From IMG/VR virus record IMGVR_UViG_3300031208_000188, positions 1 to 22,875 of that record: 22,875 nucleotides of DNA; one strand, 5' to 3'. This document shows, in pieces, positions 2,879 through 17,275 of this stretch. A model generated the notes under the pieces. That model had not been told where the DNA came from. It saw only the letters and a program-made list of their open reading frames with translations, and searched no databases. Positions within the stretch are counted from its first letter, which is position 1. Every line of letters starts with the position of its first letter. The position numbers and the translations under genes were made by a program. Source of the DNA: a virus.

Positions 2879-3895
2879 CTATTTTGCAGTTAACGATTCT
2901 TTATGCTCAGTGTAGTCAAAGAATCCGTCGTAAACGTTTACGATAAACTGTTCCCAGTACTTACGGTTAACGCTTTCAGGCAGTACTACAATGGCTGCCA
3001 GCCGTTCAACTTTTGCAATTACGTCCTCTAACGCAGGTTGCACAGTAGCAGTAAAGTCTAATTTACCTTGCTTGACAGCAAGAACGAACTCACGATACTT
3101 TAACGGGTATTTTAAGTCCCCAGTTTCGTAGATCTCTAGTAACTGATAAGCGGCGCGCAGAGCATGACTTAGTGCCTTCCAGTCGACGCCTTCGTTGGTT
3201 TTTGCCAATTGGGCGCGGTGACCGTATGCGTCATATTTTTTCTGAAGTGAATCCACAACATAGGATATTTTAGTAGTAAAGTCATACTTGGCGTCACACA
3301 CTTCTACAATTTTCTTGTTAACGAACTTACTACCTTTATAGAAGCCGGGCTTGACTGCTACTTTGCCAGGATGATCTTCTGCGACACACTGAAGATGAAA
3401 CTCTAACATCGGGGTTTCGTCCATTCTGGCTTCGGGGTTAACAAGTAATACGCTGTGTAGCACTGTTAACACATCTTCCATGGACTTGAGTCTTGAACCT
3501 TTTACACCGTACTTAGATGCTTGCTTGCGACAGTAGCCTAAAAACGCCTTCATGTTCTTGGTGTAGAACAAGTGACGATTTGCCACCAATGCCTCCCATA
3601 CAGGGCTGCTTGACATAAGATGTGCGTCGTCACAGTGGAGCATGTCTATCGCAACCGTGTCTCCGTCACACGCCATTTTGATGAATTTTTGTAGACTAAA
3701 GTAAACTGTATCTACGTCTTCACTGGAGTTCTTTTGGTGTGCATCGCCTGTGCTGTGTCGGATTTCGTGACTGGCTGTCATAGTCACCATTTCGTCCAGC
3801 GTGGGCAAGAACACGCCCTTGTAGTCCATGTCACTGTTTTCGGTGTTCAACCCGTATAAGTGACTGCCGTGTACCATTTCACATAGTTTGTTCAT
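2879..3895 (-). CDS. RlaP-type predicted nucleotidyltransferase
   Basis: 338 residues. The N-terminus carries the minimal-nucleotidyltransferase signature, GSHLYGLNTENSDMDYKG at residues 10-27: GS motif Gly10-Ser11, then the metal-binding pair Asp22 and Asp24 in SDMDYKG. The pattern and length fit the RlaP/YcgL-type family (Pfam RlaP, PF10127), seen in many phages. The substrate is unknown; transfer of a nucleotide to RNA or protein is the general expectation. The C-terminal half is helical and looks family specific. The start overlaps the stop of the preceding membrane-protein gene as ATGA. Confidence 0.88.
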   Translation of the reverse strand: MNKLCEMVHGSHLYGLNTENSDMDYKGVFLPTLDEMVTMTASHEIRHSTGDAHQKNSSEDVDTVYFSLQKFIKMACDGDTVAIDMLHCDDAHLMSSSPVWEALVANRHLFYTKNMKAFLGYCRKQASKYGVKGSRLKSMEDVLTVLHSVLLVNPEARMDETPMLEFHLQCVAEDHPGKVAVKPGFYKGSKFVNKKIVEVCDAKYDFTTKISYVVDSLQKKYDAYGHRAQLAKTNEGVDWKALSHALRAAYQLLEIYETGDLKYPLKYREFVLAVKQGKLDFTATVQPALEDVIAKVERLAAIVVLPESVNRKYWEQFIVNVYDGFFDYTEHKESLTAK

Positions 3896-4089
3896 TGTTT
3901 CTCCTCTTGGGGGGCGTATTTGTTAATCTCAGAGCAAGTAAAAACTTCTTTGCCCACGTAAAATTTTCCTAGCTTGCGGCAATCGTCTGCTACTGTTAAG
4001 TGTGCTTCAATCCAGGCTTTGCGATGACCGCTCGAAAAGCCGAGTACGTAGCCTATTACTATACAGCCTAGCATTAAAAAGAATTCCAT
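3892..4089 (-). CDS. Small single-TM protein
   Basis: 65 residues with one N-terminal hydrophobic segment (FFLMLGCIVIGYVLGFSSG, about residues 3-21) followed by a charged, soluble tail containing two cysteines. It is a probable N-anchored inner-membrane protein. Its stop overlaps the nucleotidyltransferase start as ATGA, which argues that it is a real, coupled gene. The family is not recognised. Confidence 0.65.
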   Translation of the reverse strand: MEFFLMLGCIVIGYVLGFSSGHRKAWIEAHLTVADDCRKLGKFYVGKEVFTCSEINKYAPQEEKQ

Positions 4090-4096
4090 ATTGTTC

Positions 4097-4438
4097 TCAC
4101 TGTGGAAAAATGCGTGTTTCCCACTTGTCGCCGTAAACTGAATTTACTACTGCGCGACAAGCTGCTATTTCTGGGGTGTGTCCTGTGCCAACACCGTACG
4201 GCTTCCAGCATTGCGACTGCCACATACCGTCTGCTGTTGGCGATAGTTCTACCCTACGACTAACAATATAACGCCATAACTTGGTTATGTCAACCGACGG
4301 TCGAAAAGGATGCCATTCGTCCACTAGTCCTTCCTGTATTACTCCCTGCATAGAAGAGTACCTAACGTCAATATCAAGTGCCGTACAAAACGCAACATCT
4401 AGCTCAGTACCTGTTAACTCGTCGGTTAGTGTTTTCAT
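4097..4438 (-). CDS. NinX-like phage protein (DUF2591)
   Basis: 113 residues. It starts MKTLTDELTGTELDVAFC, close to the start of lambdoid NinX (a Lys-Thr-x-x-LTG-x-x-LD-x-AVA pattern). It keeps the family's middle Trp/Tyr-rich strand pattern (WQSQCWKPYGVG) and an Ala-Arg-containing helix (EIAACRAVVNSVYGD) near the C-terminus. NinX/DUF2591 proteins are small phage proteins of unknown function. An internal sigma-70-like promoter (4265-4293) lies inside the gene. Confidence 0.75.
   Translation of the reverse strand: MKTLTDELTGTELDVAFCTALDIDVRYSSMQGVIQEGLVDEWHPFRPSVDITKLWRYIVSRRVELSPTADGMWQSQCWKPYGVGTGHTPEIAACRAVVNSVYGDKWETRIFPQ
4265..4293 (-). promoter_or_regulatory. Intragenic sigma-70-like promoter within the NinX-like gene
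   Basis: Minus-strand TTGACA (4288-4293), exactly 17 nt, then TATATT (4265-4270, 5/6). It would transcribe the small TM protein and nucleotidyltransferase genes. Its coding context lowers confidence. Confidence 0.45.
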
Positions 4439-4444
4439 ATTAGT

Positions 4445-4777
4445 TTACTCTTTTAGAAAATAAGTACCGCGGAAATATTCACAGTGCTCTTTCACGAATG
4501 GAAGAAACGGTTCGTCGGGCAGTATAACGACGCAACCAGTAGCATGATCTACGCCGTGACTGACAACCACGCTACCGGCTCGCTCAACAATATTGTTGTT
4601 TTCATCATACTCGTCTTCGGGGATTCTATAAGAAATAACTTCTACGTCAGTATGCATAAACTGCTCTCTAGTAATAGTATTATTACACAGTATGCAGTCA
4701 ACGGACGTAGATGTCAAGAGAATTTTCTTTTTGGAGCCTATTAACCGATGCCAAAACGTCGTCTGTATTGTGACCAC
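4445..4777 (-). CDS. Hypothetical protein, uncertain start
   Basis: Up to 110 residues if read from a GTG at 4777, which overlaps the repeat-protein gene by 37 nt and has no clear ribosome site. A TTG at 4717, behind an A-rich AAAGAAAA stretch and just after the upstream stop, would give 90 residues. An ATG in QFMHTDVEV would give about 70. The protein contains a CxxC pair (DCILCNN), a conserved-looking stretch SVVVSHGVDHATGCVVILPD, and an aromatic C-terminus. The reading frame appears real because it fills the gap between two genes. I do not recognise it. Confidence 0.6.
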   Translation of the reverse strand: MVTIQTTFWHRLIGSKKKILLTSTSVDCILCNNTITREQFMHTDVEVISYRIPEDEYDENNNIVERAGSVVVSHGVDHATGCVVILPDEPFLPFVKEHCEYFRGTYFLKE

Positions 4778-8222: not shown

Positions 8223-8426
8223 TCACTGCTCCCCTGGCCATATTACTACGTCAGCTTTACCAGTAAACACCATAAGTGCTAACTTGAGCCTATTACGCAG
8301 TCCGTACATGCCTAAATGTCTAGCAGGAACCCATTGCCCACTAGAGTGCTCACTTAGGGTTTCTGGGTCTGTTCCTGCCTCTACAATAGCGTCTAGCGTA
8401 TAAAGCACCGGCGCGCTATCAAGCAT
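8223..8426 (-). CDS. Small conserved phage protein (FTGKADVVIWPG type)
   Basis: 67 residues. Its second half, WVPARHLGMYGLRNRLKLA then VFTGKADVVIWPGEQ, matches a small protein I recall as common in marine T4-like phages, but I know of no function. It overlaps the end of clpP by 8 nt. The Arg-rich amphipathic helix followed by a beta stretch suggests a small folded domain. Confidence 0.65.
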   Translation of the reverse strand: MLDSAPVLYTLDAIVEAGTDPETLSEHSSGQWVPARHLGMYGLRNRLKLALMVFTGKADVVIWPGEQ

Positions 8427-9045
8427 CTTTACGCTCTACTACTTTGTCAGCAAGTCCGGCATCAACTGCTTCCTGTGCATTATAAAAAGTATCAAACTTC
8501 ATTAGCTCGTACAGCTCGTCGTAGTCCTTACCTTTGCTGTTGTGTTTAACATACAGTTCTGTAAGGCGTTTGTTGACCTTACGAGATTCTTCATAGTGAC
8601 GTCGAGCGTCTTCAAACTCAAGCTCTTGTACATGGACACTGCCTTTGGTGCCCGGAGTACCTGAACTAACGCGGTGAATCATAGTGCGTGACTCCGGCAG
8701 TACCACACGCTTGCCTGCTGTGCCTGCCTGTGCTAGAAAGCTGCCCATGCTACAGGCCTGACCCATGACAATTGTACGTACATCACTCTTGATGAACTGC
8801 ATTGTATCATATATTGCTAGTCCAGCAGTTACTTCTCCACCACCACTATTGATATAAACACTGATTTCTTTGTCAGGGTTGTCTGCTTCTAGAAACAGCA
8901 ATTGAGCAACAATCGAGTGAGCCATCTCTGTATGGATACCACCGTTGATCATTACGATTCGATCCTGTAGCAGCCTACTGAAAATATCGTAAGATCGTTC
9001 GCCGGCTGCTGTTTTTTCAATTACAAAAGGTACTAGGTTGCTCAT
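8419..9045 (-). CDS. clpP: ClpP-like serine protease subunit
   Basis: 208 residues, the normal ClpP length. All catalytic residues are present: Ser99 in GQACSMGSF, His124 in MIHR and Asp185 in MKFDTFYNAQEAV. The oligomer-forming head and handle sequences (VYINSGGGEVTAGLAIYDTM) match bacterial ClpP. The start ATG immediately follows the preceding stop (TAAATG). ClpP needs a ClpX or ClpA partner, and none is encoded in this window, so it presumably joins host ATPases or another phage gene outside. With phage ClpS and tmRNA nearby, it fits a role in degrading tagged or N-degron proteins. Alternatively it could act as a prohead-type protease, but the ClpP motif match is strong. Confidence 0.92.
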   Translation of the reverse strand: MSNLVPFVIEKTAAGERSYDIFSRLLQDRIVMINGGIHTEMAHSIVAQLLFLEADNPDKEISVYINSGGGEVTAGLAIYDTMQFIKSDVRTIVMGQACSMGSFLAQAGTAGKRVVLPESRTMIHRVSSGTPGTKGSVHVQELEFEDARRHYEESRKVNKRLTELYVKHNSKGKDYDELYELMKFDTFYNAQEAVDAGLADKVVERKDA

Positions 9046-11099: not shown

Positions 11100-11786
11100 C
11101 TACACTTTAGGGAACAGCATATCCTTACAAAATGTATCAACCTCTTCGGGCGGCAGTCCTAAGCTTTTCATTACTGCTGGGGTATGTGGATTCTTTTGCT
11201 GGTTTTCGCAGTAATAGTTTTGCGCTGTGAGACATTCGTCTGTATCGCACATATGATTGTACTGTGTGATCGCATCAAGGTACATTCTTAAATTTTCCTC
11301 TACGATGCTGATAATAGTTGCGTTTTCTTCCGGCTTTACGTTGCTAGCAGCTAGCATCTTGTCAGTAAAGATGTTGGTAGCCCATTCTGGCAGTTCTCGT
11401 TGCTTCTTAGGCACAAAGTCTTCAACACTGTCGAAATATTGCTGTATCATTGGATGGTCGGTCTTAACACTCTTAGAGAAGTCGTGAAATGCCCCAGTAA
11501 TCTTATTCTTGCCGGCAATTACGTCAAATCCAAAAATAGGAGCATCATTGTGCAGTTGCGGAAAAATACAGACATGCATCATCCAAATGCCTTTAGTGTC
11601 GCGAGCATCTACAACGTCAATGTGTGCTCGTCGTATATAATCGTTGGCCCAGACTCGATTAATCCAACCGTTTTCTGGTTGATTAAACGCAGCCAGACCG
11701 GGTTCCTCGATTTCAGTAGCAACGTTTTCAAACGCAGAGATAAAGGTATCCTTACAGTTGATTAATTGCGTCCAAATCTCGCTCAT
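11100..11786 (-). CDS. Ferredoxin-dependent bilin reductase, PcyA/PcyX-like
   Basis: 228 residues with FDBR family landmarks. GIWMMHVCIFPQLHNDAPIF, then GFDVIAGKNKITGAFHDFS, carries both residues equivalent to the catalytic His88 and Asp105 of PcyA (here His71 and Asp88). The C-terminal AQNYYCENQQKNPHTP then DMLFPKV is the conserved closing block. The fold and His/Asp pair point to a four-electron reduction of biliverdin with ferredoxin. PcyX, the PcyA-related phage enzyme known from marine metagenomes, makes phycoerythrobilin; PcyX against PcyA cannot be settled by eye. It is coupled by ATGA to the heme oxygenase gene, which supplies biliverdin. The start ATG is the overlap ATG. Host ferredoxin is presumably the donor. 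Confidence 0.85.
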   Translation of the reverse strand: MSEIWTQLINCKDTFISAFENVATEIEEPGLAAFNQPENGWINRVWANDYIRRAHIDVVDARDTKGIWMMHVCIFPQLHNDAPIFGFDVIAGKNKITGAFHDFSKSVKTDHPMIQQYFDSVEDFVPKKQRELPEWATNIFTDKMLAASNVKPEENATIISIVEENLRMYLDAITQYNHMCDTDECLTAQNYYCENQQKNPHTPAVMKSLGLPPEEVDTFCKDMLFPKV

Positions 11787-12328
11787 TTCTTTGCCTCTGC
11801 CATCTGTTGAAACATTTTAGTTGCAAAGCCAAAGCATACCTTTGCTTCGTCTGCCATACTATCGTCTATCCGCTCTCTTATTAGTAATTTTAGCTCGTCT
11901 TTGTCTCGATCAAACGTGTACATATTGCCAGCGCCGGGGACTTTTTTAGCAATCATTTGCCCACCAAATAGGTCTCCCATGTGCCTTACATATATATGCG
12001 CCATTAGTCTGTCTGCATCCTCAGAAATAGACATCAAATAGTCCATGTACTCTTTTACTACAGGTAAGAGGACAGGAAGATCGTCTGATCCTTTCATTAA
12101 GTCTTGATAGTCTTGGTATATCTTTGGGGCTCTACGCAGTTCAGGCATTCCGTCAAACAACCCGTGTACCATGCCCAGTGTCTCTAGCAGATTATATTGA
12201 GGATGCTGATTAAATAGAAACGTTGCATAGCGCTCGTTTGTCATCTTTCCAGAAAACATTTCTTTTACAAATGCCTGTCTTTCTGCATCTCTGTGTTGTA
12301 CTGCTGTTAGCTCTTTTAGGTTATTCAT
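11783..12328 (-). CDS. Heme oxygenase (biliverdin-forming)
   Basis: 181 residues. LKELTAVQHRDAER has the proximal heme ligand His (His12) with the family's LT-x-x-x-H-x-x-AE pattern. YVRHMGDLFGGQMIAKKV (113-130) is the distal helix Y-x-R-x-x-GDL-x-GGQ. It cleaves heme to biliverdin, CO and iron. It is shorter than the roughly 235-residue cyanobacterial HO1, ending soon after the final helix. Gene order clpS - this - bilin reductase, with ATGA overlaps on both sides, indicates coupled translation and a heme-to-bilin route. It could also serve iron release. The identification is solid. Confidence 0.9.
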   Translation of the reverse strand: MNNLKELTAVQHRDAERQAFVKEMFSGKMTNERYATFLFNQHPQYNLLETLGMVHGLFDGMPELRRAPKIYQDYQDLMKGSDDLPVLLPVVKEYMDYLMSISEDADRLMAHIYVRHMGDLFGGQMIAKKVPGAGNMYTFDRDKDELKLLIRERIDDSMADEAKVCFGFATKMFQQMAEAKK

Positions 12329-12633
12329 TTATCTTCTTCTATTTTGGCTACTAATGGAAAGCCGTTATCTCGGCTAATGTTAATTGTTTCAGCAATCTTT
12401 GTTTCAGCAATTTCAAAAGTATAGGTTCCTACTACGGCTGATCCTTGATTATGCACTTCCATAGTCAACGCTTCGGCAGCAGGCGTGGCGTGACGAAATA
12501 TTTCTTTTAAGATTCCTATAACCCAATCTATCGGAGTACTATCATCGTTTAGTAAGATTACCTTATACTTGTTAGGCGTTTTCTTTTTAATCTTGACTTT
12601 CTCTTTGGCGAATGGCTGTGCATTTGTAGACAT
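12325..12633 (-). CDS. clpS: ClpS-like N-degron adaptor
   Basis: 102 residues, normal ClpS length. A basic, disordered N-terminus (KEKVKIKKKTP) is followed by NKYKVILLNDDSTPIDWVIG, the core that forms the N-degron pocket, then MEVHNQGSAVVGTYTFEIAE and a C-terminal FPLVAKIEED. Key ClpS residues for the pocket and the ClpA contact (the NDD, the VHNQG His) are present. ClpS passes substrates with destabilising N-termini to ClpAP. No ClpA is in the window, so host ClpA is implied, perhaps with the phage ClpP. A strong AGGAGG lies 6 nt before the ATG. The ATGA overlap couples it to heme oxygenase. Confidence 0.93.
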   Translation of the reverse strand: MSTNAQPFAKEKVKIKKKTPNKYKVILLNDDSTPIDWVIGILKEIFRHATPAAEALTMEVHNQGSAVVGTYTFEIAETKIAETINISRDNGFPLVAKIEEDK

Positions 12634-15012: not shown

Positions 15013-15117
15013 TTAGCGTCTCATCCGTGCAATGTCGTTTATTTCTTCGTCACTGATCACAGGAACAGCGTTAGGCCTGTTTGCGTCGACTGCCTTCTTT
15101 AGAATTGTGAAATACAT
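15013..15117 (-). pseudogene. Diverged C-terminal tail copy of the gene at 15928-16353
   Basis: A 34-residue frame (ATG at 15117 with GAGAGA upstream, stop at 15013) ending NAVPVISDEEINDIARMRR, which aligns with NAVPVINDEEIIAIRHMRR at the end of the 141-residue gene. Further upstream, TILKKAV aligns with TLIKGVA. It overlaps the 3' end of the homing endonuclease gene in another frame. It is probably a gene end stranded by endonuclease insertion; translation as a mini-protein is possible. Confidence 0.65.
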
Positions 15118-15892
15118 AATCTCTCTCGTTGCCGGTATTTGGTTGTGAATGATAATCTTCTTTACTTATTTTACAGCAATTTCCGTCTTTGTCAACCACT
15201 ACTACGCTTCCTGACAGCTTTTTCTTTGTTTCTTCGCTACACGTCTTTCCTAGGTTAGCCTGTCTTAATTTTTCTTTAGTTTCTTCGGAAACGTATTTCC
15301 CCTTGTTTGATTTGCTCATTTTTGCACGAGTTACATTGGACACCGGCCTTCCGGTTAGCCACAAAACTGCCTCGGGTCGTTCTTTGCCTTTTCTTGCTTT
15401 TGACATTTTTTCTCTAGTTTCTTGTGACGCTGTTTTACCTAGATTTGCTTGCCTCAATTTTTCTTTTGTTTCTTCACTACGCGGACTGAAGTTGCCTATT
15501 GTACTGCCTTTTATTCCCTTGTTCCACGCCAATTGTCCTTTTGTTGATGCTGACATCTTGTCTCTTGCTTCTTGGGTGTGTGGCTTATAGTTCTTACGAC
15601 CAGTGTTACCACCGTCGAGGCCATTCTCGGCTATGATGTTTGCCCATTGTTTAGACTCAACTATCTTATTATTAATAGAGAACTGCGTAGCAGCATTCTT
15701 ACAGTCCTCCGGGCATTCAAAGTAACCGAAAACCTCCGTAGTTATATTATACCCGTGTTTCTTTAGGTGAGCAATCCAGTGTTTTCCTGAACCGTAATAC
15801 CTATGGGGGTCGTTAGTAGTTTTTCCAAAATATTTAAGACCGGTGATGTTATGCGTTTTAATATATAGGTAAGTAGGATAAAAGTTTTTCAT
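15071..15892 (-). CDS. GIY-YIG homing endonuclease with NUMOD3 repeats
   Basis: 273 residues. The N-terminus TYLYIKTHNITGLKYFGKTT has the GIY-YIG strands (YLY and YFG variants), followed by the catalytic-type DPHRYYGSGKHW. From about residue 100 come repeated DNA-binding NUMOD3 motifs: TQEARDKMSASTKGQLAWNK, then SEETKEKLRQANLGKT (twice nearly identical) and EETKKKLSGS. A final KDGNCCKISKEDY segment follows. It is a free-standing homing endonuclease (Seg-like) that cleaves a related DNA site and spreads by repair. It lies between the 141-residue gene and a diverged copy of that gene's tail, marking its insertion point. There is no sign of a surrounding intron. Confidence 0.92.
   Translation of the reverse strand: MKNFYPTYLYIKTHNITGLKYFGKTTNDPHRYYGSGKHWIAHLKKHGYNITTEVFGYFECPEDCKNAATQFSINNKIVESKQWANIIAENGLDGGNTGRKNYKPHTQEARDKMSASTKGQLAWNKGIKGSTIGNFSPRSEETKEKLRQANLGKTASQETREKMSKARKGKERPEAVLWLTGRPVSNVTRAKMSKSNKGKYVSEETKEKLRQANLGKTCSEETKKKLSGSVVVVDKDGNCCKISKEDYHSQPNTGNERDYVFHNSKEGSRRKQA
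15168..15195 (-). promoter_or_regulatory. Intragenic sigma-70-like promoter near the end of the endonuclease gene
   Basis: Minus-strand TTGACA (15190-15195), 16 nt, TAAAAT (15168-15173, 5/6). It could drive the tail copy and the frameshifted gene downstream. Confidence 0.35.
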
Positions 15893-16868: not shown

Positions 16869-16873
16869 AGGCA

Positions 16874-16900
16874 TAAAAAAAGAGCGCCGAAGCGCTCTTT
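16874..16900 (-). terminator. Rho-independent terminator of the tmRNA
   Basis: Minus strand AAAGAGCGC - TTCG - GCGCTCTTT is a perfect 9-bp stem closed by a UUCG tetraloop and followed by an unbroken U-tract of seven. It is the only fully canonical intrinsic terminator in the window and follows the tmRNA coding piece. Confidence 0.9.
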
Positions 16901-16914
16901 TATCACTTTTCTGT

Positions 16915-17262
16915 TGCAGGATAGCGATATCCCCGAACTTGCTGCGGTTTAGGCAGCTAGCAGTTGATCTTCGAAAAGACCTTCTACTGTTAGTTCTGTG
17001 GTAAATGATGTTTTGTCATTTCCTAGTTTTATGCGTTTACGGCCGTCATCTACCGAGTAGCCAACATTAGTAATAGCTCCGAAAGTCGAATCTAGTACAG
17101 CCCCATCAAAAGCACACTTGCCCCTGTTCCGATAATGCCTCGGTTTGGGTAAGCTCTGCATAGCTAGTAGTGTATGCAGACACTAGCAGTGCGCTTATGG
17201 TGGAGCTGGCCGGATTTGCACCGGCGTGTTCCCGTGTTTTCCTAAGCTAGTTTACTACCATT
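16915..17262 (-). ncRNA. ssrA: Circularly permuted (two-piece) tmRNA
   Basis: In transcription order the gene has an acceptor piece first, then an intervening segment, then the coding piece. The acceptor piece (to 17198) contains a T-arm GCCGG-TGCAAAT-CCGGC and the 3' acceptor strand CAGCTCC-A-CCA. The intervening segment (17197-17105, 93 nt) includes a long-range AAGCGCACT / AGTGTGCTT pairing. The coding piece starts at 17104 with GGGGCTG and the tmRNA-typical GATTCGAC. The two acceptor strands pair over 7 bp including a G-U at the third pair, the alanine identity element. The tag frame runs 17020-16949. This permuted layout is that of alphaproteobacterial and some other ssrA genes. tmRNA rescues stalled ribosomes and tags the unfinished protein for proteolysis. 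A TATAAATA motif lies just upstream and a UUCG terminator just downstream. Ends are approximate. Confidence 0.92.
16949..17020 (-). other. tmRNA tag reading frame
   Basis: After TAG-GA (17025-17021), equivalent to the UAGUC upstream of the resume codon in E. coli, codons read AAT GAC AAA... through 23 codons to TAA at 16951-16949. The encoded tag begins NDKTSF and ends FEDQLLAA. With the alanine added from the charged tmRNA the tag would begin A-N-D, like most bacterial tags. It is about twice the E. coli length. The terminal Leu-Ala-Ala is the usual ClpX-type degron end. Confidence 0.8.
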
Positions 17263-17267
17263 AATAC

Positions 17268-17275
17268 TATTTATA
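17268..17275 (-). promoter_or_regulatory. Perfect T4-type late motif for tmRNA
   Basis: Minus-strand TATAAATA directly before the tmRNA acceptor piece, inside the end of the upstream gene's intergenic gap. It suggests that the tmRNA is made late in infection. Confidence 0.6.

Follow-up and report, generated by a model that had tools for sequence, protein, structure and literature searches.

A further circularly permuted tmRNA gene of the phage type, with an unusually long tag, in a virus record

Two-piece, circularly permuted tmRNA genes have been described in phages on several occasions. One survey classed 53 of 133 distinct phage tmRNA structures as two-piece, almost all of these being aquatic, and the permuted tmRNA of methylophage Melnitz has been published, where it was reported together with a glutamine riboswitch (PMC9004378). 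The Rfam model of the permuted form, RF04321 (tmRNA_permuted), is described in PMC11915505. Pelagibacter phage Mosig EXVC030M, a T4-type marine phage placed in Kyanoviridae, carries an annotated permuted SsrA (RF04321, 93.6 bits) with an acceptor-first layout, a G3-U70 pair and a tag of 9 residues (GEDNFALAA). Permuted genes are also recognised by RF04321 in Stenotrophomonas phage vB_SmaM_Bhz51 (118.5 bits), Pseudomonas phage SM1 (118.6 bits) and Xanthomonas phage Rb1 (103.4 bits), whose tags have 12-14 residues and in none of which SmpB was found. The SM1 (L095, 1470-1769) and Rb1 (L096, 1506-1811) genes are unannotated in the deposited records.

The window analysed here, a virus record of 22,875 bases, contains a circularly permuted, two-piece tmRNA gene on its minus strand, at approximately 17262-16872. 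The locus is matched by RF04321 with 85.5 bits (E 2e-15; 17259-16949, model positions 1-213 of 213), the gathering threshold being 47 bits, and by RF01849 (alpha_tmRNA) with 55.5 bits at 17313-16899, over the full model and above the gathering threshold of 50 bits. With a margin of 5.5 bits, alpha_tmRNA was the sole subfamily model over threshold at the locus, unlike in vB_SmaM_Bhz51 and SM1, which match beta_tmRNA. These two scores bear out the first-pass annotation, which had read the locus as a phage-encoded, circularly permuted tmRNA. The RF04321 score lies near the bottom of the range of phage permuted tmRNAs (60-151 bits in the others tested). Searching the INPHARED phages with the locus by blastn gave no match, and relatives were therefore sought with covariance models, sequence patterns and a neighbour protein; as a search probe, the SNase neighbour found no relatives. 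In L084 and L085, which are the nearest relatives and do not differ over the stretch compared, the same tmRNA gene scores 87.8 bits. ARAGORN reported nothing at the tmRNA locus in the window, nor in L085. The window locus is thus a real permuted tmRNA gene and a well-supported further example of the published phage type, rather than a novelty, since many phages are already known to carry such genes. It adds a permuted tmRNA lineage which ARAGORN-based phage surveys would miss. The glutamine riboswitch sets Melnitz apart, as no riboswitch family reached threshold in the window.

The layout is permuted in that the acceptor 3' strand and its CCA precede the coding piece, from which 93 nt separate them; all parts are on the minus strand. 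The acceptor piece (17198-17262, from the RF04321 alignment, the 5' end being approximate) is made up of the 5' strand of P2, the T-arm GCCGG-TGCAAAT-CCGGC (17209-17225, from the sequence and the comparison with L085), the acceptor stem 3' strand CAGCTCC (17202-17208), the discriminator A (17201) and an encoded CCA (17200-17198). The intervening segment occupies 17105-17197 and is predicted from the fold to be absent from the mature RNA. The coding piece (16905-17104, delimited by RF04321, alpha_tmRNA and the L085 comparison, with an approximate 3' end) begins with the acceptor 5' strand GGGGCTG (17104-17098), after which come the D-loop segment TACTAGATTCGAC, the 3' strand of P2, the tag frame and the 3' box CGGGG...CCTGCAACAGAA (16909-16935). 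The same box is found in the alpha_tmRNA model as well as in other permuted tmRNAs of viruses, and its conserved GCAACAGAA is included in the alpha_tmRNA match. All seven acceptor pairs (17208-17202 with 17104-17098) are intact, and the third of them is the alanine identity pair G3-U70, which is present in the sequence along with the CCA end. Layout and G3-U70 are as in Mosig, whereas acceptor pair 5 is C-G in the window and G-C in Mosig. The first-pass annotation had placed the end of the acceptor piece at 17198, the 93-nt segment, the GGGGCTG start at 17104 and the tag frame correctly, and the seven-pair helix with a G-U third pair that it had described is confirmed by sequence and fold.

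The tag frame (16949-17023) encodes GNDKTSFTTELTVEGLFEDQLLAA followed by a TAA stop codon, with GGA as the predicted resume codon, a choice made through alignment with other permuted tmRNAs. The tag has 24 residues, ends in LAA (a hydrophobic C-terminus) and is unusually long: those of other viral and phage permuted genes readable by ARAGORN have 9-14 residues, with one of 28, and the tags of Mosig and of the three phages with gammaproteobacterial hosts described above are likewise shorter.

At the downstream end, the predicted UUCG terminator was found as an intrinsic terminator (16872-16901, minus strand) of the form AAAAGAGCGC-UUCG-GCGCUCUUUU followed by U, with its hairpin stem at 16878-16901. 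Upstream of the gene lies TATAAATA (17268-17275, minus strand), an octamer resembling T4-type late promoters, for which the counterpart in L085 is AATAAATA. The earlier claim that the gene has its own late-type promoter stands in part. A single TATAAATA octamer is not beyond chance, but the coding strand of the window has six copies of the heptamer ATAAATA and the other strand none, and five of the six precede a gene start by no more than 60 nt, the highest value among 21 letter permutations. In L085 the strand bias is 5 to 0 and the upstream excess is weaker (two of five). As strand bias and placement upstream of gene starts both favour a late-type promoter, it is plausible that TATAAATA acts as a T4-type late promoter of the tmRNA gene.

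None of 100 shuffled sequences folds as well as the 398-nt precursor (z -4.77). The acceptor piece folded with the intervening segment gives z -3.65, and the segment is predicted to prolong the acceptor helix into a single long hairpin. The base of this hairpin is retained in L085, where the segment has 46 nt instead of 93. The coding piece shows a single difference between the window and L085 over about 200 bases, compared with 73% DNA identity in the flanking protein genes and 36% differing four-fold degenerate sites in the twelve genes common to both. In this pair, the intervening segment is freely variable and the mature RNA almost fixed. The T-loop is TGCAAAT in the window and GGCAGTA in L085, the remainder of the acceptor piece being unchanged, and both types are present among other viral permuted tmRNAs. 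Since Hsp20 is also nearly unchanged between the two (98% identical), the near-identity of the coding piece could partly come from a recent exchange that involved parts of this region.

Many viral contigs carry permuted tmRNA genes. A scan of viral contigs with the pattern CTCCACCA...GGGGCTG...TTCGAC returned 81 stretches, a few of which resemble chance matches without a T-stem, and a second scan, in which the fifth acceptor position was not C and position 68 was left free, returned at least 120. For the count of acceptor pair 5-68, only distinct cases with a T-stem, which is an independent criterion, were kept. Among the matches listed, this pair was standard in all 131 such cases, with position 68 free, and was of three types (C-G in 43, G-C in 48 and A-T in 40); the two acceptor strands, whose covariation the first-pass annotation had proposed as a check, do covary. 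P2 was not recovered by RNAalifold on the joined pieces, and cognate and shuffled pairings were therefore compared. Over 46 distinct loci, the P2 strands pair better with their own partner (mean -16.6 versus -13.5 kcal/mol when shuffled), and none of 5000 shuffles reached the cognate mean, a statistic that ignores the relatedness of the loci.

It is thus very probable that the phage has here a functional, circularly permuted ssrA gene, this function being predicted from the sequence. The steps that lie beyond the gene anatomy are proposed by analogy with known permuted tmRNAs. The precursor would be transcribed from the minus strand, guided by the signals present there, and would end at the UUCG hairpin. 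Host tRNA-processing enzymes would presumably cut out the intervening segment, as in known permuted tmRNAs, and the two pieces would remain joined through the acceptor and P2 helices, which is consistent with the fold and the covariation. The host alanyl-tRNA synthetase would attach alanine via G3-U70. Searches of the window, L084, L085 and the other records, most of which, including the window and L085, are fragments, revealed no SmpB, and host SmpB would therefore be used to bring the tmRNA to ribosomes that have stalled at the end of a broken message. The ribosome would then append GNDKTSFTTELTVEGLFEDQLLAA and, because this tag ends in LAA, the product should be routed to Clp proteases. During infection, ribosomes may in this way be kept usable while host messages undergo degradation. 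The question is raised why many phages bring a ribosome-rescue RNA without SmpB, and some of them with Clp proteins.

An ORF of 70 codons (16949-17161, minus strand) lies over the coding piece, and its frame, open throughout, would allow the locus to be read as a protein gene with a secondary resemblance to tmRNA. The chance of this seems close to nil: the covariance-model scores favour tmRNA, the ORF has no Pfam family match, and its start is inside the intervening segment, where the corresponding frame of L085 has an upstream stop and no such start codon. The loss of this start in L085 shows that no conserved protein is encoded here and is the reason for rejecting the protein-coding reading; the gene call, which the first-pass annotation had suspected of covering and hiding the locus, is spurious. 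A different objection is that the gene may be a decaying tmRNA or a decoy, either an ssrA captured from a host or a mimic of tRNA which binds SmpB or the synthetase without ribosome rescue. There is a precedent in the tag-less tmRNA form of mycobacteriophage DS6A, which was suggested to be a decoy (PMC4131195), and the low covariance score, the silence of ARAGORN and a T-loop that differs in type from that of the nearest relative would all fit. However, the tag frame, the stop codon, the 3' box and the seven acceptor pairs are all intact, the two T-loop types both occur in other viral permuted tmRNAs, and the coding piece has hardly changed since the split from L085; we regard a decoy or a decaying gene as improbable.

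A further proposal extends the functional-ssrA explanation rather than competing with it. The tmRNA might be part of a phage tagging-degradation module with the phage's own ClpP and ClpS, in which the distinctive long tag would go with a phage-altered Clp protease. The window encodes a ClpS adaptor (12325-12633, minus strand; PF02617, E 4.5e-26) with its active-site residues kept, and a ClpP-type serine protease (8419-9045, minus strand; PF00574, E 2.9e-59), the S, H and D residues of which align with those of E. coli ClpP. The ClpP, ClpS, GroES and Hsp20 genes are at most 9 kb from the tmRNA, in an order identical in L085, whereas the Mosig tmRNA is beside a late-transcription accessory gene and has no Clp genes nearby. 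Among the 30 records searched, ClpS was present in six and ClpP in seven, and tmRNA, ClpS and ClpP occurred together in the window, L084, L085, G025 and G029, with ClpX and ClpA in addition in G025; as these counts have no tmRNA-free comparison set, the co-occurrence is a lead only. On the other hand, most tmRNA-bearing records, many of them fragments, are without ClpP or ClpS, no Clp ATPase was found in L084 and L085, and phage ClpP-fold proteins are usually named head maturation proteases. Moreover, E. coli ClpS diverts ClpAP from SsrA-tagged proteins. Such a module therefore appears doubtful, although it would leave the prediction of a functional ssrA gene as it is. G025 (IMGVR_UViG_3300017565_000001, 424,529 bp) is a jumbo phage contig with a T4-type portal and terminase (L071 / L190-L194). 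It carries a permuted tmRNA with the tag ANDNVYAAAA and encodes a ClpX with a zinc domain, ClpA, ClpS, ClpP and an IF3-like protein; SmpB was looked for in this contig and not found.

As to the phage itself, NrdB shares 65% identity with its counterpart in T4-type cyanophages. A two-gene pigment cassette with overlapping genes (11100-12328) encodes a heme oxygenase and a ferredoxin-dependent bilin reductase closest to PcyX (PDB 5owg, E 1e-77). Mosig likewise has a heme oxygenase and a bilin reductase, the latter 51% identical to that of the window. psbA was not found in the fragments. Among the T4-type marine phages, the window phage leans to the pelagiphages, and the likeness of the heme oxygenase and PcyX-like reductase to those of a SAR11 phage is a suggestive host hint only. 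GroES, used as a host probe, was not informative, with identities of 38-51% spread over many phyla, and the exact D-loop/acceptor pattern had no near-identical copy in bacterial genomes, so that no bacterial source was found. The first-pass annotation had proposed an alphaproteobacterial source or host. In its favour, the alpha_tmRNA model is matched in full, including the 3' GCAACAGAA box, but its threshold is exceeded by only 5.5 bits, and the window gene differs from the alpha_tmRNA of Alphaproteobacteria in its long tag and phage location. The permuted form by itself does not identify the host, since it is also found in the Stenotrophomonas, Pseudomonas and Xanthomonas phages, which are isolates and have gammaproteobacterial hosts.

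Some other genes were noted in passing. A NUMOD3 protein, probably a homing endonuclease, is encoded near the tmRNA (15071-15892), and in L085 an ORF between nrdA and nrdB (3588-4643), with repeats similar to those of the NUMOD3 protein, is also a probable homing endonuclease. The window further encodes a subtilase-family protease (31-1149), an RlaP-type RNA-repair nucleotidyltransferase (2879-3895) and, on the minus strand (1203-1505), an ORF whose N-terminus (GFTLIELMIVIAIILILATIAIPAY) resembles that of type IV pilins, an odd feature for a phage.
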